In this document: piece after piece, positions 1 through 37,437 of the stretch
Position numbering within the stretch: position 1 is the first letter of the stretch
How the letters are laid out: every line of letters starts with the position of its first letter
Source of the DNA: a virus
Virus record (IMG/VR): IMGVR_UViG_3300048927_000735
Span: 1-37,437 of that record
Direction: 5' to 3' (one strand)
Length of the DNA: 37,437 nt
Notes under the pieces: model-generated
The model's input: only the letters and a program-made list of their open reading frames with translations
What the model was told of the DNA's origin: nothing
Database searches by the model: none
Made by a program: the position numbers and the translations under genes

Positions 1-1029
1 ATGCGGTACAACCCTGCACTCGATGGACTGAGAGCCTTGGCCGTGCTGCTGGTCTTGGCGTTCCACGCCCGGATTGAGGGGTTCCACGGCGGGTTCTTCG
101 GGGTCGACGTCTTCTTCGTCCTGTCGGGCTACCTGATTACGCGCCTGCTGGCCGACCAGCACAGCGCCACTGCAACCATCAACGTCCCCGCCTTCTACCT
201 GCGCCGCCTGCGCCGGCTCTATCCGGCACTGCTGCTGTTCCTGGGCGTCTACCTGATCGCCGGGCCATTGGCCTTCCCGAACCGGCAGGGTCACGCGCGC
301 GACGCGCTGGTTGCCGCCACCTACCTTTCCGATTACGGCTTCGCCTTCTGGAAGATTCCGTGGGTGGTCCAGCACACCTGGAGCCTGTCGGTGGAAGAGC
401 ACTTCTACCTGGCCTGGCCGGTTGCCCTGCTGTTGGTTCTGAGGCTGCCCCGCAGGTACTGGACCGTGGTGGTCCTGTCGCTCGCCGCGGCCGCCACCCT
501 GTGGCGTTGGCACGTCGTGTTCAACGTGGACTCGTGGCAACAGCCCTACTACCGGTTCGACACCCGCCTGTCCGGTCTGCTGCTCGGCGCTGCTGCCGGC
601 CTCTGGAAGCCGCAGGTCCCGCGGCTGGCCGCCCCTCTCGGCGGTGCGTTGCTGCTGCTGGCCATGTCGCAGGCATACACGAAGGTCGATACCGCCCTGA
701 CCGTGTGGATGGCCGTGGCTGAGGTCGGTTCGCTGCTGCTGGTGCTGGGTGCCCACCAGGTCCGCCTGCTCGCGTGGGCGCCACTGGTGTGGATCGGGAA
801 GCTGTCCTACGGCATCTACCTGTGGCACTACCCGATCATGCTCTGGCTGCGCGGGCATGACGTGACCGGATTCGAGTGCCTGGCTATCGGCGGTGGCGGC
901 GCCATCCTTGGCGCGGCCCTGTCCTACTTCACAGTAGAACGCTTCGCTCGATCAAGGCGTGCTCACGGCGTAGAAGCTGCCGGGAGCGGACAGGTTGGCG
1001 CACTCGGCCGCGATCCAGGCATCCGATAG
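1..1029 (+). CDS. Membrane O-acyltransferase (acyltransferase-3/OafA type)
   Basis: A 342-residue multi-pass membrane protein of the acyltransferase-3 family, which moves acetyl or other acyl groups onto cell-surface sugars. Visible family marks are the N-terminal PALDGLRALAVLLVLAFHA with the conserved histidine, GFFGVDVFFVLSGYLI, an Arg-rich FYLRRLRRLYP loop, WSLSVEEHFYLAWP, and a C-terminal GKLSYGIYLWHYP followed by YFTVERFAR. About ten hydrophobic helices cover residues 8 to 310. The last 25 residues or so are not family-like and are encoded antisense to the end of the neighbouring tail gene (76-base convergent overlap). Its place beside tail-fibre genes fits serotype conversion of O-antigen in the lysogen, which can block adsorption of related phages. 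The family call is firm; the substrate and the conversion role are inferred. The window begins exactly at its ATG, so its promoter is not visible. Confidence 0.9.
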   Translation: MRYNPALDGLRALAVLLVLAFHARIEGFHGGFFGVDVFFVLSGYLITRLLADQHSATATINVPAFYLRRLRRLYPALLLFLGVYLIAGPLAFPNRQGHARDALVAATYLSDYGFAFWKIPWVVQHTWSLSVEEHFYLAWPVALLLVLRLPRRYWTVVVLSLAAAATLWRWHVVFNVDSWQQPYYRFDTRLSGLLLGAAAGLWKPQVPRLAAPLGGALLLLAMSQAYTKVDTALTVWMAVAEVGSLLLVLGAHQVRLLAWAPLVWIGKLSYGIYLWHYPIMLWLRGHDVTGFECLAIGGGGAILGAALSYFTVERFARSRRAHGVEAAGSGQVGALGRDPGIR

Positions 1030-2667
1030 GGCGCTGGCTCGCAGGTAGACGAAGCCCATCCGTCCCGCGAACATCTCGGCCAGGCTCTGGTCTTCGACAC
1101 CCATATGCAGGGAGACCTTGCCGGTCGGCGCGGTCGTGATAGGCGCGGCGTGGGCTTCTCGAACGCCGTTGTAGAACAGCGATCTGGAGGTCGTGCCCAC
1201 GTACCTTGCGTGGACGCGCGTTTTCGCCCCTGCCGCCGGCGTCGTGGTCGACTCCAGCCAGGTATTGCCCGTGTCCCACAATCCTACCTTGCCCGTCGCA
1301 CCTCGATAGCCGAGCGTCACGCGGTTGGTATTCGCCGTCGTGTTTGCGGTGTAGGAGAGAATCGCCTGGTTGGCCGCGGCAAAGGCGTTGGCGATGATCG
1401 TCGCGCCCATGGTGAAGGTGGCCTGGTTGGTAAGCCCCTGGCCGAGCATGTAGCCGGTGTTGCTGCCGACGACCACCGATTCGAACCCGCCGCCAGCCTC
1501 AGTATTGAGCGGCCGAATGGTATGCAGGACCGTGCCCGTTCCATCGTCGCGCAGTACCAAAAGGTTGTCATCAGTGGACCCCAGCCCTTCGTAATTCCCA
1601 GCGCGGGACGTGGCACCATCAGGGATATCCGTCCATGCGCGCGTAGCCGTATCCAGGTTCTCACTCATACGGAATGTGAAATCTGCTGTATCCCCATTGG
1701 CAAACCACATGTCACGCCAACGGGCTAGGCCCTGAACACGCATGGGCCCCGGGTTACCGCTGCTGGAGCTCTCATATGCGAGGGTACTCAGGTTGTATCG
1801 ATTCAGCTTAAAGGTGGCGCTATCGCTATATCTAGTTGTCCACAGCGCGTTCTGCTCAGCGTTGATGGCGATGGTCGATATCTCGTCGGCCTGCGCCGAA
1901 ACGTCGACCGAGTCGATGAAGGCCAGGGTCGCCGCGTTGAACCGAGCGATGCGCTGGTTCGAGAACACCGTGACGCTGGTGTAGGACTCGACTGGCACGT
2001 AAAGCACGCCGTTGTGAACGTCGGGGTCTCCGCAGTGGTTCGTCCCGTTACCCACATCGCCAACCGGGTTGGCATTTGTCGCAACCAGGTTCCACGAAGC
2101 GTCGTATTTGTTGATGGCGTTCGTGTCAGTCAGGTAGTAGTGAGTGCCATCCCAACACACGCCCTGATGCTCAGTCAGCCCTGTTTTGTCGCTGACCAGT
2201 TCGAACAACTTGATGCGGTTTGACTGCGCCGCGGCAGAACCAACACCGGTCCAGTCTGTCTCGACCAAATTGAACAGGAATACGCGCTGGTAGTCTGCCC
2301 ATACCGCATAGGCACCGTTGGCCGCGTTGTTGGGCACCTTGGCAAGCGACGAATCTCCGTAATGAAGGTCAAATTCTGTGATGGACGAGGCACTCAGAGT
2401 CGCCCGAACAAACATGGCTCCTGCCTTCGCAGCCGGGTCCACACGGACCAGATGGAACGGGATGTCGACCCCGGCCGTAGTCTTCGCCCTGAAATCGCGA
2501 CCGTCTTTGTAGGCCATGCCGGTCCAGACCGCCGGAGGCAGTAAGGATAGGTCAATGTAAACCGGGAAACCGGACATGGCCTCCGTCTGCGCAGGGATGG
2601 TGATGCGCACGCGCTTTTTCGCAGGTGCTCCCCGGAACCGTGCTCCGGCGACCACGCCGGGGATCAC
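952..2667 (-). CDS. Distal tail/fibre protein, 571 aa, GTG start
   Basis: The start is chosen as GTG at 2667, which shares GTGA with the stop of the upstream gene and has GGAGG seven bases before it. A longer ATG reading would overlap the previous gene by 76 bases. The N-terminus (about residues 15 to 110) resembles DUF2341-type beta domains found in sugar-binding and surface proteins. The middle (about 130 to 390) reads like a beta-propeller with repeated hydrophobic strand and loop motifs (HQGVCWDGTHYYLTD, VQGLARWRDMWFANGD, YEGLGSTDDNLLVLRDDG). The C-terminal 150 residues look like a concanavalin/LamG jelly roll (NRVTLGYRG, RSLFYNGVREAH, GRMGFVYLRASALSDAWIAAE). As the last gene of the late unit it is a good candidate for a receptor-binding or fibre-tip protein. 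The domain calls are by eye. Confidence 0.75.
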   Translation of the reverse strand: MIPGVVAGARFRGAPAKKRVRITIPAQTEAMSGFPVYIDLSLLPPAVWTGMAYKDGRDFRAKTTAGVDIPFHLVRVDPAAKAGAMFVRATLSASSITEFDLHYGDSSLAKVPNNAANGAYAVWADYQRVFLFNLVETDWTGVGSAAAQSNRIKLFELVSDKTGLTEHQGVCWDGTHYYLTDTNAINKYDASWNLVATNANPVGDVGNGTNHCGDPDVHNGVLYVPVESYTSVTVFSNQRIARFNAATLAFIDSVDVSAQADEISTIAINAEQNALWTTRYSDSATFKLNRYNLSTLAYESSSSGNPGPMRVQGLARWRDMWFANGDTADFTFRMSENLDTATRAWTDIPDGATSRAGNYEGLGSTDDNLLVLRDDGTGTVLHTIRPLNTEAGGGFESVVVGSNTGYMLGQGLTNQATFTMGATIIANAFAAANQAILSYTANTTANTNRVTLGYRGATGKVGLWDTGNTWLESTTTPAAGAKTRVHARYVGTTSRSLFYNGVREAHAAPITTAPTGKVSLHMGVEDQSLAEMFAGRMGFVYLRASALSDAWIAAECANLSAPGSFYAVSTP

Positions 2668-3104
2668 GGCGCAGCCTCCAGGCTGCCGGCTAGAACCCAC
2701 TCGTCGGTGGCGCGCTTGACCAGAACCGCGGTCGCCCACTGCTTTCGCAGCTTCAGCGTCTCGTCGGTGCGGATCGTCACGCCTGCACCCGCTACCACCG
2801 TCGTCTGCCCTGCCCCGCGCTGGTTGATGTTGCGCACAGCGCCTATCGGGAACGCCACGGTCGAGTTTGGCGGCACAGTGAGGGTGTTGGCGGTTGCCAC
2901 GTCCATCTCGATCCAGTCGCCATCAGCCAGCGCCAGCGTTGCACTGGCGGTCTTCGTGGTGATCGTGACGCCGCTTCCCGTGGTCGCCAGCGCCGCGATC
3001 TGGGCCAACGTCGCTTTCTTGTCGACGCCGCCCTGGACGATCTGACACAGGTCGGCTCCAGAAACGGTAGCTGCTGCGGTGTAATCGGTGGCGTACTTGG
3101 GCAT
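2664..3104 (-). CDS. Small tail-fibre-associated protein, 146 aa
   Basis: Begins MPKYATDYTAAATVSGADLCQIVQGG, which resembles the short N-terminal motif seen in phage fibre proteins that attach fibre subunits. The rest is Thr/Val/Ala-rich with alternating hydrophobic residues typical of beta-helical or beta-sandwich fibre segments. A central motif, SATLALADGDWIEMDVATANTLTVPPNSTVAFPIG, matches the style of phage fibre domains of the form 'tvtvp.ns..fpiGt.i.v.q.gaG.vtv..gaGvt'. The stop overlaps the GTG start of the 571-residue protein, so the two are translationally coupled. AGGTAA lies before the ATG. It is probably a fibre shaft or adaptor; an exact role cannot be given. Confidence 0.72.
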   Translation of the reverse strand: MPKYATDYTAAATVSGADLCQIVQGGVDKKATLAQIAALATTGSGVTITTKTASATLALADGDWIEMDVATANTLTVPPNSTVAFPIGAVRNINQRGAGQTTVVAGAGVTIRTDETLKLRKQWATAVLVKRATDEWVLAGSLEAAP

Positions 3105-3109
3105 GATCG

Positions 3110-3853
3110 TTACCTGTCGAAGTCGTAACCCACCAGCGCGATGGACACCGAGCCTGTGAGTAGGCCCAAGATCGGGCCGATGAGGGGAAGAGAGGCGTTC
3201 AACAGAACCGTGAACTGCCGGTTGGCGTCGAGCGTGATGTCGAGGACCGGGGAGGAGCCGGGGATCGCGGCGTACTGAAAGTTCGTGGACGAAGGGGCGC
3301 CCACGTCCGACCGCGAGGTGTAAAGGGTGAAGTTCGTCGGGTTGAGCACCTGGACGATGGCCCGGTTGGCCGTCACCGGCAGTACCGCAGACAGGTCAAC
3401 AGTCTGCGGCGTGGTGGCCACCAGCCCCGAGAGCAGCATGATCGGCACACTACCGGCCGCAGTCGCCGCGTCCAGCATCACCCGGTTCCCCATCTCGGAC
3501 GGCCGGGTGTGCTTGCCAGGGCGCAGAACGGAGCTGGCGTTGGTGCGGCCGCTGATCAGGTAGCGTCGCGTCGGGTCGCCTGTCTTGCACCGCGCGGTGC
3601 CGAGATACGGAACATCAGGGCCGGTCGTGGACGCTTCCAGCCCCATCAGGCCGCTGCCCATGTCGTAGGCGTACAGGTGGTAGAACGTGTTGGCTGTCGG
3701 GCTGCTTAGCGTCACCGAGGCGCTGCCGTCGCTCAGTACCCGGCCAGTCCCCGGCACGTAGCACATGCCCGGGGACACGCTGACCGTCAGCCCGTTGAGG
3801 CCTACCGAAGCTTGCAGGCCGCGGATGATGGAGATAGAGGGATCGAGCGCCAT
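3110..3853 (-). CDS. Tail/baseplate-like structural protein, 247 aa
   Basis: A beta-rich protein starting MALDPSISIIRGLQASVGLNGLTVSVSPGMCYVPGTGRVL. This is a pattern common in phage tail proteins that begin with a coordinate-like or 'quantity' domain (SVSPGxxYVPGtGrvl..s...vtls..anTfyHlYaYd). The second half (about 120 to 247) has strand-rich Val/Ile/Thr sequence and no catalytic motif. The stop is TAA, and the start ATG at 3853 shares its A with the TGA stop of the upstream gene (TGATG), so it belongs to one co-translated tail cassette with its neighbours. The gene clearly codes. The precise structural role is not recognisable from sequence alone. Confidence 0.72.
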   Translation of the reverse strand: MALDPSISIIRGLQASVGLNGLTVSVSPGMCYVPGTGRVLSDGSASVTLSSPTANTFYHLYAYDMGSGLMGLEASTTGPDVPYLGTARCKTGDPTRRYLISGRTNASSVLRPGKHTRPSEMGNRVMLDAATAAGSVPIMLLSGLVATTPQTVDLSAVLPVTANRAIVQVLNPTNFTLYTSRSDVGAPSSTNFQYAAIPGSSPVLDITLDANRQFTVLLNASLPLIGPILGLLTGSVSIALVGYDFDR

Positions 3854-4791
3854 CAGTTCGCGATGCTCCGGTCAGAGAAGCGGCGCCATTTCGTGCCGCT
3901 TGCTACGGTCGAGTCGTACCAGCAGGGCTCGCGACCGCCTGCCAGGTCCGTGATTGCCACCATCTGGAAGTCGGCGACACCTGTCAGCGCGTTGGCTGCG
4001 GCCAGCGTCATCGGCGCCAAGGCGTTGATGGTGGCCAAGGACCAAGTCCCAGCCGTCGCTCTGAGGGGGACGCCAGCGCCTGTCAGTGCCGCGATTGCGG
4101 CCAGGTCAGAGTCCAGCGGCTGGTAGTCGGGCACGTTGTAGAGCCACGACCACGGGACGGCAGGCGTGTTCTGCCGCAGAGGTTGGCCTAGCTGGTCGGT
4201 CAGCAGGTTGCCAAGCTGGTCGGTAAGCTGCGGGAATAGCGGGTTGTCGCCACTGCCGCCCGTCGCAGAAATGATCGGCCGCCGCGGGTCGGTCTTGTCT
4301 ATCGTGACGTTGGTCCCGGCGATTACATCCTGCAGAGCCGTATCGGCCAGCCCGAGTGAGACGAGGACGGAGGGAGCCAAGGCCAATACGACGACCCCAT
4401 CCGTTCCCGTTGTCTTGGTGATCTGGTTCGTTGTCCCAGAGATCGCGCTGGAGATCGCAAACCAACCCTTCGCACCCGTCGGCCCTGTGCCGTAGTACAT
4501 CGTGTTGCCGGGAGCGTTGCTGTCGTTCTGCAGCGTGATGATCACCGCCCCGCCTGGCTGCGGGATGCCCTGGACACCGATTGAGCCCTGTCCCAGCAAC
4601 TGGAAACTCAGCGACTGGCCATCCTCCAGCTGCGCCACCCGAGCGGCCAGTTGGGCGTAAAGCTCGGCCAGATCCTGTTGTGTCTGCGCCGAGGCCAGCT
4701 TGAGGAAGAAGTCCAGCCACGCCCGGGTCACATGGCCGCCATTCCCCGCGATTGGCTCCGCAATGCGCGGTACGTCAGCCGGGGATGCCAT
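3853..4791 (-). CDS. Tail fibre-type protein with N-terminal coiled coil, 312 aa
   Basis: The start is taken at ATG 4791, overlapping the upstream TGA as TGATG; an in-frame ATG ten codons earlier would overlap more and lacks a better ribosome site. Residues 1 to 60 include HVTRAWLDFFLKLASAQTQQDLAELYAQLAARVAQLEDG, a heptad-like helical stretch typical of trimeric fibre stems. Residues 60 to 160 contain a Thr/Ile-rich region (QITKTTGTDGVVVLALAPS) of the type repeated in siphovirus and podovirus fibre proteins. The C-terminus (MVAITDLAGGREPCWYDSTVASGTKWRRFSDRSIAN) matches a frequent phage motif in which a parameter such as W..FSD.s is reported at the end of fibre proteins. It is most likely a stem or adaptor between the tailspike-like protein and the distal proteins. 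Confidence 0.72.
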   Translation of the reverse strand: MASPADVPRIAEPIAGNGGHVTRAWLDFFLKLASAQTQQDLAELYAQLAARVAQLEDGQSLSFQLLGQGSIGVQGIPQPGGAVIITLQNDSNAPGNTMYYGTGPTGAKGWFAISSAISGTTNQITKTTGTDGVVVLALAPSVLVSLGLADTALQDVIAGTNVTIDKTDPRRPIISATGGSGDNPLFPQLTDQLGNLLTDQLGQPLRQNTPAVPWSWLYNVPDYQPLDSDLAAIAALTGAGVPLRATAGTWSLATINALAPMTLAAANALTGVADFQMVAITDLAGGREPCWYDSTVASGTKWRRFSDRSIAN

Positions 4792-5576
4792 CAGGCGGCG
4801 ACCTTGCCCACCGCACGCCACATGATCGGGATCGGGCTGGTCAGGTTGTACTGCGACCGGGTGTCATCGATGCCCAGGTCCCATGCGATGGTGGCGCCGG
4901 TCGTGCTGACCGCGGACACGCCGATATCGCCGATGTAGCCCGCCGAGACGACGCCGGAGCCCTTGTTGATCGTGACCTGCAGGTTCGGGACCGTGAGGTA
5001 CGGGACGGGGAACGTGATGCTGCCGGTGGCGATCTGCGCGGCGCTCGCCGGGATCGAGGCAGTGCCCCACTGGTCCAGATTGGTCCCGACCTTGGTGAAG
5101 TTGTCCCCGAAGCTGTAGTTGGGCGTCGGGATTGGCGTCGGCGCCTGAAGGATGTAGGTGCCGCCATTCGCGACCGGGATGTACCCGTCCGAGCCGGTCG
5201 GGTCCGGCATCTGAAGGATCGAGCCCCACGACAGGATCGAGCCGTCGTTGGTCAGGAACTGGCCCGAAGGCAGCGGGGTCGGGATGGTCAGTCCACCAGC
5301 GGCCCCGTCGCTCACGTCTCGGGTCCAGATCACGGCGCCCAGCGAGTCACGCAGGACGACCGAATACGCCCCGCTCAGCCAGATGTTCACGTTGGCGCGC
5401 CCGGACGAATCCAGGGGCACCGGGTTCGTGTTCGGGATGGTCAGGCCCTGATCCGACCAGGTCATTTTGGGCGTGCTGGTGCCCTGTTCGAAGAACGCCA
5501 GGAACCCGCCCGCCACCGGCTGGTTGCTGAGCAGATCGAAATACGTGGGGTTCGGGTCGTAAAAACGTCCGCTCAT
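4791..5576 (-). CDS. Tailspike-like N-terminal head-binding protein, 261 aa
   Basis: Start at ATG 5576 with GGAGC just upstream; the longer in-frame reading to 5699 would run through a terminator hairpin. Residues 1 to 85 carry the common podovirus tail-fibre attachment pattern: FYDPNPTYFDLLSNQPVAGGFLAFFEQGTSTP, then TWSDQGLTIPNTNPVPLDSSGRANVNIWLSGAYSVVLRDSLGAVIWTRD. This domain joins spikes or fibres to the virion tail hub. The remainder (about 100 to 261) is beta-rich, with no recognisable depolymerase or pectate-lyase repeats, and is far shorter than the P22 tailspike. The protein therefore looks like an adaptor on which the following proteins are mounted, rather than a full enzyme spike. 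Confidence 0.8.
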   Translation of the reverse strand: MSGRFYDPNPTYFDLLSNQPVAGGFLAFFEQGTSTPKMTWSDQGLTIPNTNPVPLDSSGRANVNIWLSGAYSVVLRDSLGAVIWTRDVSDGAAGGLTIPTPLPSGQFLTNDGSILSWGSILQMPDPTGSDGYIPVANGGTYILQAPTPIPTPNYSFGDNFTKVGTNLDQWGTASIPASAAQIATGSITFPVPYLTVPNLQVTINKGSGVVSAGYIGDIGVSAVSTTGATIAWDLGIDDTRSQYNLTSPIPIMWRAVGKVAA

Positions 5577-5592
5577 GGGTGCTCCAGGCAAT

Positions 5593-5616
5593 AAAAAAGC
5601 CCGCTCAGGGCGGGCT
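5593..5616 (-). terminator. Intrinsic terminator (minus strand)
   Basis: On the minus strand a perfect 7-bp stem AGCCCGC/GCGGGCT with a 5-base loop is followed by six T residues. It lies between the end of the gp16-like gene and the start of the tail-fibre cassette, so fibre genes need either read-through (Q-type antitermination) or their own promoter. There is no T run on the plus-strand side. Confidence 0.85.
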
Positions 5617-5679
5617 GTGGATAACGCAGCGGTGGTCCGGCGGTGGTAGCATTCGGCGATCCATCCAAGGACGACCCCG

Positions 5680-5838
5680 ATGAACTGGCTATACGCCATT
5701 GCCCTGAAGGCTGTCTTCGTGCCGGTGTTCGCCTACCTGTACTGGCTTCTGGCCATCAAGGGCGGCAACAAGCTGGTGAAGTTCCTCGTGCCCAGCAAGA
5801 AATGGCGCGAGATCCTGACCAAGGAACGCTACTTCTAA
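5680..5838 (+). CDS. Small opposite-strand membrane protein, 52 aa (moron-like)
   Basis: ATG at 5680 with AAGGA nine bases upstream encodes a 52-residue protein, MNWLYAIALKAVFVPVFAYL onward. One hydrophobic helix spans about residues 4 to 26, followed by a basic cytoplasmic-type tail rich in Lys and Arg (KFLVPSKKWREILTKERYF). It is the only plus-strand gene inside the 26-kb minus-strand block. It ends with a 4-base convergent overlap on the stop of the gp16-like gene and begins just after a minus-strand terminator. Reversed orientation, small size and a membrane anchor are the usual signs of a phage moron expressed independently in the lysogen. No family is recognised and no clear promoter boxes are seen; superinfection exclusion is only a guess. 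Confidence 0.65.
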   Translation: MNWLYAIALKAVFVPVFAYLYWLLAIKGGNKLVKFLVPSKKWREILTKERYF

Positions 5839-9963: not shown

Positions 9964-10413
9964 TCAGATGTCCTTGGTATAGCTGATTTCGGATCGGGAG
10001 TAGCCCAACTTTTCGTAGAGGGCTGCGGCCTGCGGAGGGCTGTTGGGCATGTGGACCATCTGGATTCGGTCGGCACCTGCATCGCGGCAAGCGCCCTCAA
10101 CTGCCTGAAGCAGCGAGACGGCAACGCGAGAGCCGCGGGCCTCGGGGTCAACCCACCACACGACCTCGCCAGCGGACGTGGCGTGCCGGTTGAACATGAA
10201 GGGGATGATGAAGAGGCCGACCATGCCGACCAGTCGTCCGCCGTCCTCAGCCACGTAGAAGATGTGGCTCTCGATCAGGCCGGAGGCCAGATCAGCCACC
10301 GTCTCCTCGTCCATGTCGCACCACTGGGCGTAATGCGTGGTCGGGTAGAAAGCTGCGGACATGCGGACGATCTCCGGCACGTCGGCCAGAGTTCCTTTGC
10401 GGATGATGGTCAT
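9964..10413 (-). CDS. GNAT-family N-acetyltransferase, 149 aa
   Basis: Classic GNAT layout: beta-1 with TIIRKGTLADVPEIVRM, a central beta-4 (GEVVWWVDPEARGSRVAVSLLQAVEGACRDAGADRIQM) whose RGSRVA corresponds to the acetyl-CoA pyrophosphate loop, and an end motif AALYEKLGYSRSEISYTKDI. Such enzymes transfer acetyl from acetyl-CoA to amines of proteins or small molecules; the substrate is unknown. The start shares TGATG with the oxygenase stop, so the two are co-translated. Both sit within the virion operon between gp10 and gp7, where P22 encodes its tail needle and gp14. Modification of a virion protein or a host target are both possible. Confidence 0.88.
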   Translation of the reverse strand: MTIIRKGTLADVPEIVRMSAAFYPTTHYAQWCDMDEETVADLASGLIESHIFYVAEDGGRLVGMVGLFIIPFMFNRHATSAGEVVWWVDPEARGSRVAVSLLQAVEGACRDAGADRIQMVHMPNSPPQAAALYEKLGYSRSEISYTKDI

Positions 10414-10958
10414 CAGCCCCTCGGGGTAAAGAAGGCGACCGCGACAAGGCGGCCAGAGTCGTAATCGGTGCCGAAGGCCTCGAACGGCCAGCGGCTGTGG
10501 AACAGTGCGGATTCGTAGATCAGCAGGCGACCGAGCTTCATTTCAGCCAGGCCGACCTGGTCCCACTTGCTGGCGTCGTCCCAGTCGTGGCGGACCTGTT
10601 CAAACAGGGCCATGTCGCCGGGATCGATGCGGGCTGCGCGGGTAGCCTTGTGCCGCCAGAAGGCCGTGCCACCCTCCCCTTCGCTCAGATACAGCACCGC
10701 GGCGTGCGTGCCCCAGCCCATGTCCGAGTGGATCGCCGCATTGGGCAGCTCGCGGTTGAAGTTGAGCCGGTAGCCCATGCCCAGCATCTCGACCGGACCC
10801 ATCTGGGCCTCGATTGCATCCTGCAGGCCCGGGATCTCGGTCAGACACACGCGCTTGTAGACCTCTCCGTCATAGCCGGGCCAATCCACATACGGCGCGC
10901 ACAGGCCCGCTGCCCGGAGCGCCTGCGCGTCCAGGTTTGCACCGTCAATGATGAGCAT
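10413..10958 (-). CDS. Fe(II)/2-oxoglutarate oxygenase-like protein, 181 aa
   Basis: Start at ATG 10958, overlapping the upstream TGA as TGATG; an in-frame ATG 28 codons earlier lies inside that gene. The double-stranded beta-helix oxygenase signature is visible: H77-S-D79 in NAAIHSDMGWG for iron, VLYLSEGEGGTAFW, a distal H154 in LFHSRWP, and R170 (GRLVAVAFF) 16 residues later for 2-oxoglutarate. It looks closest to DUF6445/prolyl-hydroxylase-like proteins. It should hydroxylate or otherwise oxidise a target using O2 and 2-oxoglutarate. Coupling with a GNAT gene inside the structural operon suggests modification of a virion protein, a nucleotide or a host protein. The motif call is strong; the substrate is unknown. 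Confidence 0.8.
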   Translation of the reverse strand: MLIIDGANLDAQALRAAGLCAPYVDWPGYDGEVYKRVCLTEIPGLQDAIEAQMGPVEMLGMGYRLNFNRELPNAAIHSDMGWGTHAAVLYLSEGEGGTAFWRHKATRAARIDPGDMALFEQVRHDWDDASKWDQVGLAEMKLGRLLIYESALFHSRWPFEAFGTDYDSGRLVAVAFFTPRG

Positions 10959-11185
10959 CAGTCGTCCGTTCCCTCGACAGACACGACGGCGCCAAGGAGA
11001 TCGCGCTTTCGTGCGGAGGACACTGTGATCCGGAACACCCACTGCCGAGCTCGGCCCAGACGCAGAAGCCTGATCCTCTGATCGTACTGCCCAATTTTGC
11101 CTATCGAATACCGCCTGCGGTTGCTCCAGTTGCGGCCACCGTCCTTGCTGTAGGACACGTCAACAAAATGATCGGTATCAGCCAT
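10958..11185 (-). CDS. Detached C-terminal segment of gp10, 75 aa
   Basis: The sequence runs VDVSYSKDGGRNWSNRRRYS, GKIGQYDQRIRLLRLGRARQ and WVFRITVSSARKRDLLGAVV. In P22-like gp10 proteins the equivalent 'v.vs.S.DGG.TWs....~lGk.GqY..rvr..rLG.ar..vFRv.vsdp..r.li.a.v' forms the last 70 residues of the polypeptide. Here it is a separate cistron whose ATG lies inside the last codons of the 798-residue gp10-like gene (8-base overlap, different frame). Probably it was cut off when a domain module was inserted, and it may complete the gp10 fold as a separate chain or after a frameshift. Homology is judged by eye from the family pattern. Confidence 0.75.
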   Translation of the reverse strand: MADTDHFVDVSYSKDGGRNWSNRRRYSIGKIGQYDQRIRLLRLGRARQWVFRITVSSARKRDLLGAVVSVEGTDD

Positions 11186-13574
11186 TGGGAAGTCCTGCGA
11201 GCGAAGTAATTCCGCCAGTACTGGGATTGCTCTCAGTCACCCAGGTAACTCCATTGTCGGCACTGACCCGAACTGGCATCGATCCGCTACTGGAGGACAG
11301 AAGTAGGCGGGCGCCATCAAAGGCCAGGCCGGATATAGCCCCGCCGGATGCAAGAGGGATGCGAATTGCCGTCACTGCGTTGTCATCCGAGGCCCACAAC
11401 TCGCCCGTAGAGGTCCCCATCAGCAAGCGCTGACCTGAACCCATCGGGTAACGCAGAATTGCGCTCACCGTGCCGTTGGTTGCCGCTGCAAGGGTCAGTG
11501 TTCGAAGCAAGGTTGAGCCGCCCTGCATCACTGCCACTCGGGGCTTACCCCCAGCGGCAACGTTGCCGCCGATGTACTGGTACTCGCCAGACGAATGAGT
11601 GGACCCACCGGAGGAACGCGTCACGCCATGTGCAGGGACAGAACCGAAGGTCACCCCTTGGTCGTCGCTGTAGGAATTTGCGGAGGTGGGCAGCGAATTG
11701 ACCAGAAGAATTCTTCCCGTGTTCGGCCCCGCCTTCACGATGAGCGGGTTGCCCAAGAAGGTAGTGGTAGCCGTACGGGTGGCGTAGGTCGTGCCGCTGT
11801 TCGTGCTTACATAGAACGCTCCGAGACCACCACCGAGTACCACTACAGCCCCAAGCGAATCTCCGTTCCTAGACCCACCGGAAGAGTCGATTGTGCTGGC
11901 CGATTGCGTCCAATTTGATCCGCTGTCGTCGCTGTAGAAGGCCGCTCCGGCGATCCATGCAATGAATCTGCCACTGGCGAGACCTTCGAGATTCGTAGAG
12001 CCTGCGGCCGTACCGGCGTTCACGTTCGACCAGGTGCCGCTCAGATTGCGACGCGTGACAATCTTTGTATTTCCTGCCGTAGCGCCAAGCGCCAGGACCT
12101 GCGTTGACACGCCAATCGAATCTGCCAGTTCGGTCCACAGCCCCTTTGCATCAGTCACGCGCAAGGTGTACTTGAACATGCCCGAGGCAGTAGCCGTCCC
12201 AGAAATCACGCCAGAGCTGCTGATAGACAGGCCAGGAGGGAGGCTCCCACTGGATACGACCACCGTATAGGGAGATTCCCCGCCAGCGATGGTGTAGGTG
12301 AAGTCGGTGTAGACGATCCCGCGCAACGTATCCGGAGCATCACCGCTCAGAGTCGGCGAAGACGGCTGCGGCGGGAACTCGGTGGGGATCGTCTCCGGGC
12401 CTTGGCCAGTGTCGAAAATCAGCTCTGCGCTCGGAATCAGCAACATGCTCTGGTTGTCGCTCAGGACCGGCGAAACCCGCTCGCTGACCATTGGGTCACT
12501 CCCCTCAAGGAAGTAGTCCCAGTCCAGCTCCCAGTTCCGGCCGTCCTGGTAGTCGCCGCCATACCACTTGGCACCCCACCTGACGATGTGGCTCAGACGC
12601 CAACGGTTCAGGCCGAACGACTCACGGCGGGTCCAGAGACCGGACACCACGTCGTAGCCGAAGGTCATGCCGTCCGGGAAGGTCAGGTAGTAGACCTTGA
12701 AGCCACGATCTTCCCAGACCTGGGCGAACGCCTCGCTCCAGTTCTTGCCAGCGAATGCGCGGTGCATCGGGCCGGTGGAGATCGGACGGGCTGAGTAGCC
12801 TTCTAGGCGATACACAATCCCGTCGTCGCCCAGCCAGAACAAGGTGTTGTCCAGCTTTGCGATGGTGTGGCGTGATGCGCACCCGCGGGTGATCGACTGT
12901 CGGCGGTTCTGGAACGTGCCAGTCGCCCCGCCAGCGTTGTAGAAGAATTCAATGGTGCGCTGGTTGAACACCACCACTTCGAGCTGGCTCACGGCCAGGC
13001 CGACGATCTTGTCCGGGGATGCCTCGGATTCGTACCGGTCCAGGGTGTTGTAGTCGGTGGCGTCGGCCAGATTGCTGTGGAACCAGTACCGGCCCTGCGG
13101 CTCCACGCCAAGTAGGTAGGAATCGAGATAGTCGGACGAGATAGAGCCCGGATAGCCCTCGTCCGTGATGCGGGAAAACGCCTTGGTGTTGGAGTCGTAG
13201 ATGTACCCGCCACCGCCCTGCCCGTTCTCCACGAGCAGCTGATAGCCGGTTTTGAACTGGTTGTGGGTCATGCTCACCCGGCCAACGCCAGGGATCACGC
13301 CAATCGGAATAGCCACCCCGCTGTTCCCGATCTGGTACAGATACCGACCGGAAACAACGAACTGGGCGCCCTCAAGATCGTGCATACCGCGGATCGGGCC
13401 AGTGCCCACGCGCTGGTAGGGCTTCAGGCCCGGCGGCGTCGCCAGCTTGCTCGGCGTGCGCGTCCCGCCAACCTCCGCCATCACCGGCAGCCAGTTCACG
13501 GTGTCCTGGCACGACCACGGCAGCGTGTCGTCGGCGTAGAAGCCGCCGATCAGGTCCACAGGACTGGCGCGCAT
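11178..13574 (-). CDS. P22 gp10-like tail-plug protein with inserted Ig and Asp-box module, 798 aa
   Basis: Start at ATG 13574, overlapping the gp4 stop as TAATG. Residues 1 to about 390 match packaged-DNA stabilisation protein gp10 (about 470 residues in P22): LIGGFYADDTLPWSCQDTVNWLPV, TPPGLKPYQRVGTGPIRGMH, FLWLGDDG-like and VYYLTFPDGMTFGYDV motifs. At the end of this core (RVSPVLSDNQSMLLIPSAELIFDTG) family members continue into an S-DGG-TW segment. Here the chain changes to a putative Ig domain at about 405 to 490 (SPYTVVVSSGSLPPGLSISS) and then a propeller with five Asp-box-like repeats to the end (YSDDSGSNWT, VSTNSGTTYA, YSDDQGVTFG, WASDDNAVTA, SADNGVTWVT). gp10 closes the portal channel after packaging. 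The extra module may bind a surface sugar. Confidence 0.88.
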   Translation of the reverse strand: MRASPVDLIGGFYADDTLPWSCQDTVNWLPVMAEVGGTRTPSKLATPPGLKPYQRVGTGPIRGMHDLEGAQFVVSGRYLYQIGNSGVAIPIGVIPGVGRVSMTHNQFKTGYQLLVENGQGGGGYIYDSNTKAFSRITDEGYPGSISSDYLDSYLLGVEPQGRYWFHSNLADATDYNTLDRYESEASPDKIVGLAVSQLEVVVFNQRTIEFFYNAGGATGTFQNRRQSITRGCASRHTIAKLDNTLFWLGDDGIVYRLEGYSARPISTGPMHRAFAGKNWSEAFAQVWEDRGFKVYYLTFPDGMTFGYDVVSGLWTRRESFGLNRWRLSHIVRWGAKWYGGDYQDGRNWELDWDYFLEGSDPMVSERVSPVLSDNQSMLLIPSAELIFDTGQGPETIPTEFPPQPSSPTLSGDAPDTLRGIVYTDFTYTIAGGESPYTVVVSSGSLPPGLSISSSGVISGTATASGMFKYTLRVTDAKGLWTELADSIGVSTQVLALGATAGNTKIVTRRNLSGTWSNVNAGTAAGSTNLEGLASGRFIAWIAGAAFYSDDSGSNWTQSASTIDSSGGSRNGDSLGAVVVLGGGLGAFYVSTNSGTTYATRTATTTFLGNPLIVKAGPNTGRILLVNSLPTSANSYSDDQGVTFGSVPAHGVTRSSGGSTHSSGEYQYIGGNVAAGGKPRVAVMQGGSTLLRTLTLAAATNGTVSAILRYPMGSGQRLLMGTSTGELWASDDNAVTAIRIPLASGGAISGLAFDGARLLLSSSSGSMPVRVSADNGVTWVTESNPSTGGITSLAGLPNG

Positions 13575-13981
13575 TAGCGGTCGTACCCGTCGCTGCGAAT
13601 GTTGTAACGGCAACGGAACCCGGGCAGACCCGGCTCCATGCTCATCGGGCTGGACGAGAACACGTCAGCCAGCACGTCGGACTTCAACCGCCGTGCTTCA
13701 TTGAATACGTCTGGATCGAGCGTCACGCCGTAGAAAGGGCGCAGACGAACAGCCAGGTTGTACATGATCGCCTCGTCGGTCTCGACCGGCGTCGGCATGT
13801 CATCGTCAGGGTTGTCCACAGGCGACCAGCCGACCGAGTAACCGTTGGCCTCCCAGCGCGCCATCATGCGGTTGAGGGAATCAATCGCCGTCTTCGCGTC
13901 TTCGGCCTCCGGAGCCTCGGTGGCACTGACAACGCGTAGCAGCCCAAGGGCGCCGACTACGATTTCTGCGACCTTTGTCAT
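13574..13981 (-). CDS. P22 gp4-like tail accessory/head completion protein, 135 aa
   Basis: Matches the P22 gp4 tail accessory factor type: TKVAEIVVGALGLLRVV, then EDAKTAIDSLNRMMARWEANGYSVG, then EAIMYNLAVRLRPFYGVTLDPDVFNEARRLKSDVLADV. gp4 binds under the portal once the head is filled and provides the platform for gp10. P22 gp4 is 166 residues; this one lacks a clear C-terminal muramidase-type extension. It is directly upstream of gp10 with a TAATG overlap, which is the conserved order. A terminator hairpin sits just ahead of it, so expression probably depends on read-through from the head genes. Confidence 0.85.
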   Translation of the reverse strand: MTKVAEIVVGALGLLRVVSATEAPEAEDAKTAIDSLNRMMARWEANGYSVGWSPVDNPDDDMPTPVETDEAIMYNLAVRLRPFYGVTLDPDVFNEARRLKSDVLADVFSSSPMSMEPGLPGFRCRYNIRSDGYDR

Positions 13982-27228: not shown

Positions 27229-27266
27229 GGGGAATGCCGGGGAGTACGTGTTCCCCACGATTCCCC
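27229..27266. promoter_or_regulatory. Nested inverted repeat between cro and the CII-like gene
   Basis: An outer pair GGGGAAT (27229..27235) and ATTCCCC (27260..27266) encloses an inner pair GGGGA (27239..27243) and TCCCC (27252..27256) with an 8-base loop. The site lies in the 136-base cro-cII gap of the leftward transcript, where lambda carries nutR and tR1. No T tract follows on either strand, so it is not a simple intrinsic terminator. It may be a nut-like or cII-leader structure. Confidence 0.45.
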
Positions 27267-27345
27267 TGGATGGGCCGGAAAATGGCCGCTCACCGAAACG
27301 GAAAGCAGCCAGTTGGAAATTCAGATCAGGGACGTGGCGGCCATG

Positions 27346-27534
27346 TCAGGCGGCCTTCTTGCGGCGGAAGAGTTCAGGACGGCGTGCTTTGAGCTCCCAT
27401 TGCCGGGAGTCAGGAATCGGCTCGTCGTCGGGCCAGTGGAAGACGGCCCCGCGGCTAACGCCGAAGAACCGTGCAAGTTCGGCATCGGAATCGAAGCCGA
27501 GCAGCCTTTTGACGCTGGTCTTTGACATGTCCAT
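27346..27534 (-). CDS. cro: Cro-like repressor, 62 aa
   Basis: From ATG 27534 (alternative ATG 27528). KTSVKRLLGFDSDAELARFF, GVSRGAVFHWPDDEPIPDSR and QWELKARRPELF form a small HTH matching the P22-Cro type ('.L...g...a.Ak.lgvs..aVs.W....iP..r..el..r.P.l'). It is divergent to cI across a three-operator region. It represses cI and, at higher level, its own promoter, favouring lytic growth. Neither start codon has a Shine-Dalgarno match, and the promoter -10 box ends only 9 bases before the first ATG, so the mRNA may be leaderless. Confidence 0.85.
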   Translation of the reverse strand: MDMSKTSVKRLLGFDSDAELARFFGVSRGAVFHWPDDEPIPDSRQWELKARRPELFRRKKAA

Positions 27535-27542
27535 AGAAGTGC

Positions 27543-27570
27543 AGTCTAGCGCTCTAGACTTCGAAGTCAA
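27543..27570 (-). promoter_or_regulatory. Leftward early promoter (cro promoter, PR-like)
   Basis: Minus strand -35 TTGACT (27565..27570) and -10 TAGACT (27543..27548), spacer 16. The strongest operator (27544..27559) covers the -10 region. Start of transcription is expected near 27536, almost at the cro start codon. It has the same -35, -10 and spacer length as the rightward promoter at 28977..29004. Confidence 0.8.
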
Positions 27571-27605
27571 GCGCTCTAGCGCCCATTCAGTCTACTTTTC
27601 TAGCC
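27544..27605. promoter_or_regulatory. Right operator cluster (three sites)
   Basis: Site 1 is GTCTAGCGCTCTAGAC at 27544..27559 with perfect 6-base arms. Site 2 is GTCAAGCGCTCTAGCG at 27566..27581 and site 3 is GTCTACTTTTCTAGCC at 27590..27605, each with three arm mismatches. Spacings are 22 and 24 bases, about two helix turns, as in lambda OR. Site 3 ends two bases before the cI start codon. Confidence 0.82.
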
Positions 27606-27607
27606 AT

Positions 27608-28288
27608 ATGGAAACGATGGCTGAACGCGTTAAGAAGGCGATGGCCCTGCGCGGGATGACGGCCCCTGATCTGATTGCCAGAAAGGTTCTCAGCAAGGCG
27701 GGCATCTATTTCATCCTCGACGGGACCACCAAGGCGGAGAAAATCCGAGCATCGACCGTGGCCAAACTATCGGCCGCCCTTCAAGTCAGTCCCGATTGGC
27801 TCCAGTACGGACGAGGCCCAATGGAAGGAACGAGCATTTCGCAGGAAGGCGAATGGGATGATGTGAAGGGCTACGCTCAGGCGATGGGTCTGGGCGGGGG
27901 TCCCGAGGCTGCAGAGTACGCAGAGACTCACAAGCTGAAGTTCAAGGCTTCGTCACTGGCAAGGAAGCGACTTCGCGCCCCTGCCCTAGCGGTCATGTAC
28001 GGCCGCGGCGATTCAATGGAACCTCGGGTTCTCAGTGGGGACGCGATCCTGTTTGACACATCCGACACTAGACCCAAGGACGGAGCGCTGTTCGTGATCC
28101 TTGTCCCTGGAGCACATAACAATGAGTACCAGGTAAAGCGCTGCGAAATTCTTGACGACCTTGTGTACTTCAAGGCGGATAACCCCAATGGCGACCATAA
28201 TTGGAAAAAGGCGCGCCGCATGGACGATAAGCGCTTTCCGATACAGATCATTGGTCGTGTGCGATGGATAGGAAGCTGGGAGGATTGA
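27608..28288 (+). CDS. cI: CI-type repressor with S24/LexA-like domain, 226 aa
   Basis: From ATG 27608 (ATG 27617 is also in frame). N-terminal HTH at about residues 5 to 66 (VKKAMALRGMTAPDLIARKV, SKAGIYFILDGTTKAEKIRA, TVAKLSAALQVSPDWLQYGR). The C-terminal peptidase/dimer domain has catalytic Ser136 in YGRGDSMEPR and Lys177 in NEYQVKRCE, 41 apart as usual. The cleavage region near residues 88 to 100 (KGYAQAMGLGGGPE) lacks a clear Ala-Gly or Cys-Gly. It should hold the prophage silent by binding both operator clusters. It shares TGATG with the next gene, and its DNA is visibly lower in GC than the flanking operons. Confidence 0.92.
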   Translation: METMAERVKKAMALRGMTAPDLIARKVLSKAGIYFILDGTTKAEKIRASTVAKLSAALQVSPDWLQYGRGPMEGTSISQEGEWDDVKGYAQAMGLGGGPEAAEYAETHKLKFKASSLARKRLRAPALAVMYGRGDSMEPRVLSGDAILFDTSDTRPKDGALFVILVPGAHNNEYQVKRCEILDDLVYFKADNPNGDHNWKKARRMDDKRFPIQIIGRVRWIGSWED

Positions 28289-36333: not shown

Positions 36334-36682
36334 GCAGCTAATGACCCTGGCGCAGGCGGCTGAAAGGTGCGCCTGTTCCACCAAGACCCTCCGCCGGGCC
36401 ATTGATGCGGGTAGCCTTGCTGCCTGCCGCCTTGGTCAGGGCGCGAAGTCAGATCGAATCCACCCCGCAGACCTGTCCGTCTGGTGGGCCAAATGCAGGT
36501 TGCAGGCATGCCAATCACCAAGCGCCCCAACGGAAGCTATCAAGTTACAGTTGGACACGGCGGAAGAACGTATCGAAAGACGTCTCGCAGCTGGTCATAC
36601 GCTGAGGCCAAAGCCTTCGAAAAGAAGTGGCTCGCGTCGTTCAACGCAGCTTCGGCTGGTCGTCAACCCGAGCGATCAATAG
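36320..36682 (+). CDS. Excisionase-like MerR-type HTH protein, 120 aa
   Basis: ATG 36320 preceded by GAGAGGAGG. Residues 1 to about 58 form a MerR/Xis-type winged helix (AAEQLMTLAQAAERCACSTK, TLRRAIDAGSLAACRLGQGA, SDRIHPADLSVWWAKC). Residues 60 to 120 are read in a frame that overlaps the integrase gene for 175 bases and look basic and unstructured. A directionality factor encoded just upstream of int is the usual arrangement. The overlap may be a true extension or a shadow tail that happens to remain open. Confidence 0.75.
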   Translation: MSAAEQLMTLAQAAERCACSTKTLRRAIDAGSLAACRLGQGAKSDRIHPADLSVWWAKCRLQACQSPSAPTEAIKLQLDTAEERIERRLAAGHTLRPKPSKRSGSRRSTQLRLVVNPSDQ

Positions 36683-37437
36683 CGGATGCCATCGACAAGT
36701 TCCAGGTGGAGCATCTGCCCCGGCTGCGGTCGGAGGCAAAGACCAATTCGCACGTGAAGGCGCTGATGCCTTATATCCGCGGCAGGAAGCTGACGGACAC
36801 GGCGAAGGTGTGGGCCGAGATCAAGGCTGCGGAGATCGGCAAGGCACCGGCCACGGTGAACCACAAGGGCCGGATTCTGAGGCAGATCACGCGGATGGCG
36901 TGGCGGGAATGGGGTTGGTTGGAAAGGCCAGCGGCGATTGCGCTGTTGCCTGAGAAGCCGCGCGAGACGTTCCTGACGACCGAGCAGGTCGAGGCACTGG
37001 CGAGGGCTTGCCCGAATCCATTGGCGGGCGACTACGTGCGTTTGGCAGCCTATACGGGCATTCGCCGTGGGCACCTGCTGCGCCTGACCCATCACGAGGT
37101 CAAGGAGGGCTTCATCCGGCTGGACCGGACGAGCAAGACGAGTTCCCTGCAGCTTGTCCCGCTGCACCCGAAGGTGCTGGGGATCGCTCAGCGGCTGCCC
37201 CTGCCGATCTCAGAGGATCAGGTCAGGTCGTCATGGGCGGCGGCGCGCGAGGCGTGCGGGCTGCAGGACGTGCGGTGGCATGATCTGCGCCACACCTGCG
37301 CGTCCTGGCTGGTGCAGGCCGGGGTATCGCTGCACACGGTTTCGGAGGTGCTTGGGCACAGTTCGCTGGCGATGACGAGGCGGTATGCTCACCTCGCGCC
37401 GGGCCATTTGGCCGATGCGATCAAGAAGCTGGCCTGA
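36508..37437 (+). CDS. int: Tyrosine-recombinase integrase, 309 aa
   Basis: Start taken at ATG 36508 (MPITKRPNGSYQVTVGHGGR, the normal beginning of this family); upstream in-frame codons at 36484 and 36493 are less likely. Core-binding domain at about 58 to 140. Catalytic residues are visible: R186 (TGIRRGHLL), K210 (RTSKTSSLQLVPL), H258 and R261 (HDLRHTCASW), H284 (LGHSSLAMT) and nucleophile Y293 (RRYAHLAP). It inserts and excises the prophage at att sites. The gene ends exactly at the last base of the window, so the attachment site lies outside or is not visible. Its target, often a tRNA gene, cannot be named. Confidence 0.95.
   Translation: MPITKRPNGSYQVTVGHGGRTYRKTSRSWSYAEAKAFEKKWLASFNAASAGRQPERSIADAIDKFQVEHLPRLRSEAKTNSHVKALMPYIRGRKLTDTAKVWAEIKAAEIGKAPATVNHKGRILRQITRMAWREWGWLERPAAIALLPEKPRETFLTTEQVEALARACPNPLAGDYVRLAAYTGIRRGHLLRLTHHEVKEGFIRLDRTSKTSSLQLVPLHPKVLGIAQRLPLPISEDQVRSSWAAAREACGLQDVRWHDLRHTCASWLVQAGVSLHTVSEVLGHSSLAMTRRYAHLAPGHLADAIKKLA

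Follow-up and report, generated by a model that had tools for sequence, protein, structure and literature searches.

The window analyzed here is the whole 37,437-base IMG/VR virus record IMGVR_UViG_3300048927_000735, whose minus strand carries a P22-like structural module with genes for the terminase subunits, portal, scaffold, coat, a gp4-like adaptor, gp10 and a gp7-like ejection protein. The gp10 tail hub is encoded at this locus by two overlapping open reading frames (ORFs), both on the minus strand. The first (P0001, 798 amino acids [aa], positions 13574-11178) comprises the gp10 core (residues 1-392, 12399-13574), a linker with an immunoglobulin (Ig)-like He_PIG domain (12090-12398) and an exchangeable payload that carries Asp-boxes and is putatively propeller-like (residues 496-798, 11181-12089). 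The second (P0002, 75 aa, 11185-10958) is in the +1 frame relative to P0001, encodes the C-terminus of gp10 and is called ct below. The two genes share an 8-nucleotide (nt) overlap, ATGGCTGA (11178-11185), which contains the stop codon of the first and the start codon of the second. The motif AGGA at 11193-11196, 7 nt before the ATG, is a possible ribosome-binding site of ct.

Profile searches placed both products in PHROG 578, the head closure Hc3 family of P22 gp10 (486 positions). Residues 1-421 of P0001 matched positions 1-417 (E 2e-104) and residues 10-72 of P0002 matched positions 409-471 (E 2e-12), the two jointly covering the family profile almost entirely. A profile of 19 C-terminal fragments corresponding to ct matched residues 367-425 of the Pam1 hub (7eeq, E 2.5e-7) and residues 372-428 of the Pan3 hub (9vyg, E 4e-5); the core matched residues 40-310 and 46-327 of these chains, respectively. 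The Asp-box of ct, SKDGGRNW, is the canonical gp10 Asp-box. The Pfam family PF11134 (Phage_stabilise) scored 22.3 bits against P0001, under its cut-off of 25. AlphaFold2 (AF2) models were made for the window and for the relative L092 (L numbers denote loci), and the best PDB matches of both in Foldseek were the hub proteins of Pan3, P22, Sf6 and Pam1. The gp10 gene also has the position typical of its family, directly after the gp4-like adaptor gene (13574-13981, minus strand; Pfam P22_Tail-4, E 3.8e-8; PHROG 637), but it consists of two overlapping ORFs instead of the single continuous chain of that family. These results show that P0001 and P0002 together make up one gp10, and by both sequence and fold the locus is a divided member of the P22 gp10/Hc3 family, not a separate family. 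An earlier note on this DNA, made from the letters alone, had put the end of the gp10 core at about residue 390 of 798 and had taken the 75-aa ORF for the retained C-terminal segment of gp10. Both proposals were borne out: the core ends at about residue 392, and the profile comparison suggested in the note, which might have left the 75-aa product without a match, linked both products to gp10. The Asp-box motif is missing from ct in two relatives (L069:9229-9432 and L075:8160-8363, plus strand), in which the remaining segment is kept.

About 45 distinct relatives with both a core and a ct were found in viral contigs and in prophages of Stenotrophomonas, Xanthomonas and their allies, and most are split at the same point. 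Identity to the window ranged from 43 to 92% for the core and from 32 to 82% for ct. Across 43 split loci, the window among them, the start of ct lies between -8 and +3 nt relative to the core gene's stop codon, and each of the three frame relations occurs; L055 and L089 are also split but fall outside this spacing (automatic start choice). The split occurs in isolate genomes as well as in metagenomes. The median ratio of nonsynonymous to synonymous substitution rates (dN/dS) of ct was 0.26, indicating that ct is under purifying selection. An overlap of 8 nt between different frames is what a one-base indel would produce, and an error of sequencing or assembly, or gene decay confined to one contig, might look the same. 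However, the tight spacing and the three frame relations across 43 cases exclude sequencing error, the low dN/dS argues against decay, and this explanation was rejected because the split is conserved in independent isolate genomes; its probability is negligible. The overlap, together with the continuous fusion of the same parts in L092, would also suit programmed ribosomal frameshifting that joins both ORFs into one chain. The frame relation is, however, 0, +1 or +2 depending on the relative, some relatives place a stop and a short spacer ahead of the ct start, and no common slippery site was seen at the junctions. Frameshifting was rejected on the varying frame relations and the spacers and is extremely improbable. 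The arrangement of the junctions suggests that ct is likely translated by coupled re-initiation, that is, by translational coupling.

Intact, insert-free gp10 genes were present in viral contigs (L020-L027, L029, L031 and L038) and in bacterial genomes (L093, L094 and L106-L109). Three more loci from bacterial genomes (L115, L117 and L118) are intact, with the two parts 42-114 nt apart, and further split loci among the bacterial genomes are L105, L110, L112-L114 and L116. In a scan of Lysobacteraceae/Xanthomonadaceae, 17 of 397 genomes contained the core. The relatives with intact gp10 are the more distant from the window, and the architectures require seven changes on the core tree, compared with a mean of 16 after shuffling. 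The intact form is probably ancestral, because the hubs of P22, Sf6, Pam1 and Pan3 are also single chains. Relatives with an intact gp10 simply lack the module, and none showed the intact gp10 followed by an unrelated fibre gene that the earlier note had named as the outcome against it. Its proposal of an Ig and Asp-box module inserted near the end of gp10 is supported, but what was found is a lineage-wide two-gene architecture with exchangeable payloads and not an individual event.

Several loci depart from this pattern. Two phages in which a ct match overlapped a "hypothetical protein" turned out to have intact gp10 genes and an overlapping next gene. In L065:6001-6819 the gp10 core ORF stops at residue 267 and the remainder follows further on in another frame, probably through a frameshift in that contig. 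L066:7186-7458 (plus strand) has a 91-aa insert without an Ig domain while ct is still its own gene, indicating that ct can stay separate even where the payload is small. In L017-L019 and L069/L070 the end of the core ORF comes earlier and ct is the C-terminus of another ORF; in L091 ct is a separate 74-aa ORF beyond intervening ORFs. In L017 a 209-aa ORF (4937-5566, plus strand), which by eye looks like a glycosyltransferase, lies between the gp10 core ORF and the 217-aa ORF ending in ct.

The Ig domain of the window insert (residues 420-479, 12138-12317) matched Pfam He_PIG with an E value of 2.8e-9, above the gathering score, and was modeled by AF2 with a predicted local distance difference test score (pLDDT) of about 90. 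The same domain is present in 30 of the 48 inserts. In L035:5231-5998 (plus strand) the Ig domain shares 41-44% identity with tail proteins from the Stenotrophomonas siphophages DLP5, DLP3 and Summit, indicating that the Ig stem is common to different phage types. The payload beyond it, about 300 residues long, contains four Asp-box motifs at residues 548, 590, 636 and 771; at least four were reached in 0 of 20,000 shuffles. Its AF2 model is all-beta at moderate confidence (about 70) and gave tandem-propeller fold matches in Foldseek with a low template modeling score (TM-score), and single BNR repeats scored below the Pfam cut-off. The payload is thus putatively propeller-like, an assignment resting on the Asp-boxes, the moderate model and the low-TM fold matches, with no family match above a curated cut-off. 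An intein- or intron-like nature of the insert was rejected, since no Hint, splicing or homing-endonuclease family was among the matches listed for the window and the 48 inserts (25 of 33 families).

When the Ig part was removed and the rest compared by blastp (E < 1e-6), the 48 inserts fell into 24 payload clusters, although some of the propeller clusters are likely distantly homologous. The payload types include Asp-box propellers, WD40-like propellers, lectin-like LamG domains, DUF7483 and one GTA_TIM domain (GTA, gene transfer agent). For the DUF7483 payload the matches are phage fibre and lectin-like genes, a WD40-type payload had no match in the phage collection, and the payload family of the window is common to L006, L058 and L090 only. 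Unrelated payloads occur on cores that are 96-97% identical (L044/L046/L048 and L002/L056). Where two relatives carry unrelated payloads, their nucleotide similarity breaks off 0-62 nt past the core and returns -18 to 0 nt from the start codon of ct, except in L035/L037, where the first seed begins 12 nt into ct; between relatives with related payloads the alignment extends further into the insert. Compared with the window, L041 is 100% identical in the coat, 99% in the portal, 86% in the core and 70% in ct, but its payload has no match. The payload is therefore an outlier in variability among the neighboring genes, and the alignments indicate that the exchange of payloads takes place at fixed boundaries. 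With a start codon of its own, ct would allow payloads of any length or frame that bring their own stop to be exchanged without breaking the hub, and such frame-independent exchange is a plausible reason for the split.

L092, from a prophage of Xanthomonas sp. NCPPB 1128, joins core, insert and ct in a single 985-aa ORF. Its insert of 527 residues matched positions 206-769 of NF048004, the GTA "megatron" (E 1e-217, below the full-length cut-off). This match corresponds to the peripheral domain of the RcGTA megatron, 230-744 (PMC7296036). The payload model of L092 was poorly resolved (pLDDT about 30), with too few sequences. L092 and L097 lie on contig NZ_LFME01000002.1 in two identical 17-kb stretches 37.3 kb apart, a pattern suggestive of either two prophages in tandem or a duplication made in assembly.

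The hubs T7 gp12 and SU10 gp17 (PMC6702177, PMC9509320) consist of a seven-bladed propeller and a platform that is built of both N- and C-terminal strands and attaches to the adaptor. By analogy with them, the AF2 models suggest N-terminal platform strands at about residues 1-45 of P0001, a propeller of the seven-bladed type at about 46-351 and last platform strands at about 358-390. On the same comparison the propeller appears complete within P0001, and ct most likely represents the rest of the platform domain. Closure of the propeller by ct as a velcro strand was considered and dropped, since the two AF2 models and the comparison with T7 gp12 and SU10 gp17 point to the platform. In the window model, which lacks ct, core residues 371-390 have a pLDDT of 50-54 and their strands are lost. 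In the L092 fusion model the same segment reaches 80-88, with strands at 358-365 and 376-387, and ct is mostly at 77-91.

A small gene directly after a variable tail gene is in the typical position of a fibre chaperone, and ct might thus be a separate protein outside the hub, for example a folding chaperone for the payload. This is very unlikely, however, because ct retains the sequence pattern of intact gp10 C-termini, is conserved whatever the payload, and its absence from the model leaves the last core strands poorly ordered. In the two-chain hub, the first gene would instead provide the propeller core and, inserted at a hairpin of the platform domain, an exchangeable surface payload on an Ig stem, and the second, overlapping gene would provide the remaining platform strands, which would re-associate with the core. 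The completed hub would then dock on the gp4-like adaptor, the expected partner of the platform; members of the P22 gp10/Hc3 family are expected to sit as a hexamer on the gp4 ring of the virion and to be needed for keeping packaged DNA inside. The insert would leave the platform hairpin at the outer side of the tail, giving six payloads per tail, which would probably bind host surface glycans and in some cases may cleave them.

The payload families and their exchange pattern suggest contact with the host surface through glycan binding and, in some cases, possibly cleavage; for carbohydrate binding by the payload, the sequence families make a plausible case. Since Asp-box propellers include sialidases, and one relative has a GTA_TIM domain (PF13547, in L092) with weak GH113 similarity, the payload might be mainly enzymatic and cleave glycans as tailspike depolymerases do. 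However, most payloads are not recognizable enzymes, Asp-boxes are structural and occur in nonenzymes too, and no catalytic residues were identified in the window payload, for which no sialidase alignment was good enough to place them. A mainly enzymatic payload is therefore considered unlikely.

At the left end of the phage, separate from the gp10 locus, lies a fibre-like cluster (952-5699, minus strand) whose five ORFs encode 302, 322, 247, 146 and up to 595 aa. The 146-aa ORF matches tail-fibre C-termini, and the last ORF has a weak DUF2341 match. With this cluster present, the payload need not be the sole receptor-binding part. The payload might even be a dock for separately encoded tail fibres that varies with them and does not itself touch the host, since the T7 and SU10 hubs bear fibre docks on their outer surface (PMC6702177, PMC9509320). 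The first gene of the fibre cluster (4791-5699) is, however, common to relatives with other payload types (L007, L087 and L088), which weakens this explanation, and the payload families resemble lectins, propellers or enzymes more than docks. A fibre dock is accordingly given only a small chance.

Overall, the locus is read as a two-chain P22 gp10 hub with an exchangeable host-contact module, at a probability of roughly 0.7; re-association of the chains, translational coupling, the outward position of the payload, its receptor function and the reason why the split evolved are the parts that we infer. Several observations weigh against this reading. A recognizable ribosome-binding motif precedes ct in only some relatives, and AGGA is not kept in all of them. 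The AF2 comparison involves two different proteins with different alignments, modeled as single chains and not as a co-fold, and Foldseek did not align ct across the 527-residue insert of L092. The window payload had no match in the phage collection and has no relative of known function, and the fibre-like cluster may carry the main receptor-binding protein.

The virus looks temperate from its gene content, which includes a tyrosine integrase (36484-37437) and a CI-like S24 repressor (27248-28288), and its closest named relatives are prophages from the genera Stenotrophomonas, Xanthomonas, Pseudoxanthomonas and Lysobacter. Directly after ct are DUF6445/2-oxoglutarate (2OG)-oxygenase-like and GNAT acetyltransferase genes (9964-10958, minus strand), as is the case in many relatives; in L004 and L043 the two are set apart by about 490 nt of additional DNA. 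An acyltransferase-3 family gene (1-1029, plus strand; E 8.6e-31) adjoins the fibre cluster and is possibly an O-antigen-modifying lysogenic conversion gene.

The host range of P22-like phages is usually sought in the tailspikes and fibres, but here a module that ranks among the most variable in the virion is borne by a structural hub, at a fixed site exactly where the gene is split. The split in gp10 looks like a built-in socket for swapping parts that touch the host cell. It is also a marker for host-contact modules annotated merely as "stabilization protein" or "hypothetical protein," and it offers a directly testable case of a structural protein in two chains whose arrangement permits domain exchange. 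The odds are judged about even that the hub, divided into two coupled genes, constitutes a conserved, frame-independent cassette site where short-tailed phages trade host-contact domains, including one known from siphovirus-type GTA baseplates. No description of a split gp10 was found in the open-licence literature searched.

P22 gp10, Sf6 gp8 and the Pam1 and Pan3 hubs resemble the window in sequence, fold and gene position after gp4, but each of them is one uninterrupted chain of about 440-472 aa and carries no payload, whereas the window has two genes around an Ig domain and a payload. The evolved Dit of lactococcal siphophages (PMC6669499, PMC10688798) is likewise a conserved tail-hub protein with an inserted carbohydrate-binding module. 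It is, however, an unrelated hub of another phage type with the module, as described there, internal to a continuous protein, whereas the window hub is gp10-like and its family has a split gene and many unrelated payload folds. SU10 gp17 and T7 gp12 share with the window a hub propeller, a platform of N- and C-terminal parts and inserted extra domains, namely, Ig-like nozzle domains and a fibre dock (PMC9509320, PMC6702177). Their insertions lie within a gene that is continuous, either between blades or between the propeller and its platform, and the accessible text of these papers describes no hypervariable exchange; in this the window differs. The peripheral-domain region of the GTA megatron (PMC7296036; NF048004, PF13547 GTA_TIM) is present as the gp10 insert of L092; the megatron itself is a siphovirus-type baseplate protein, and the window's own payload differs from it in being of the Asp-box, putatively propeller-like type.

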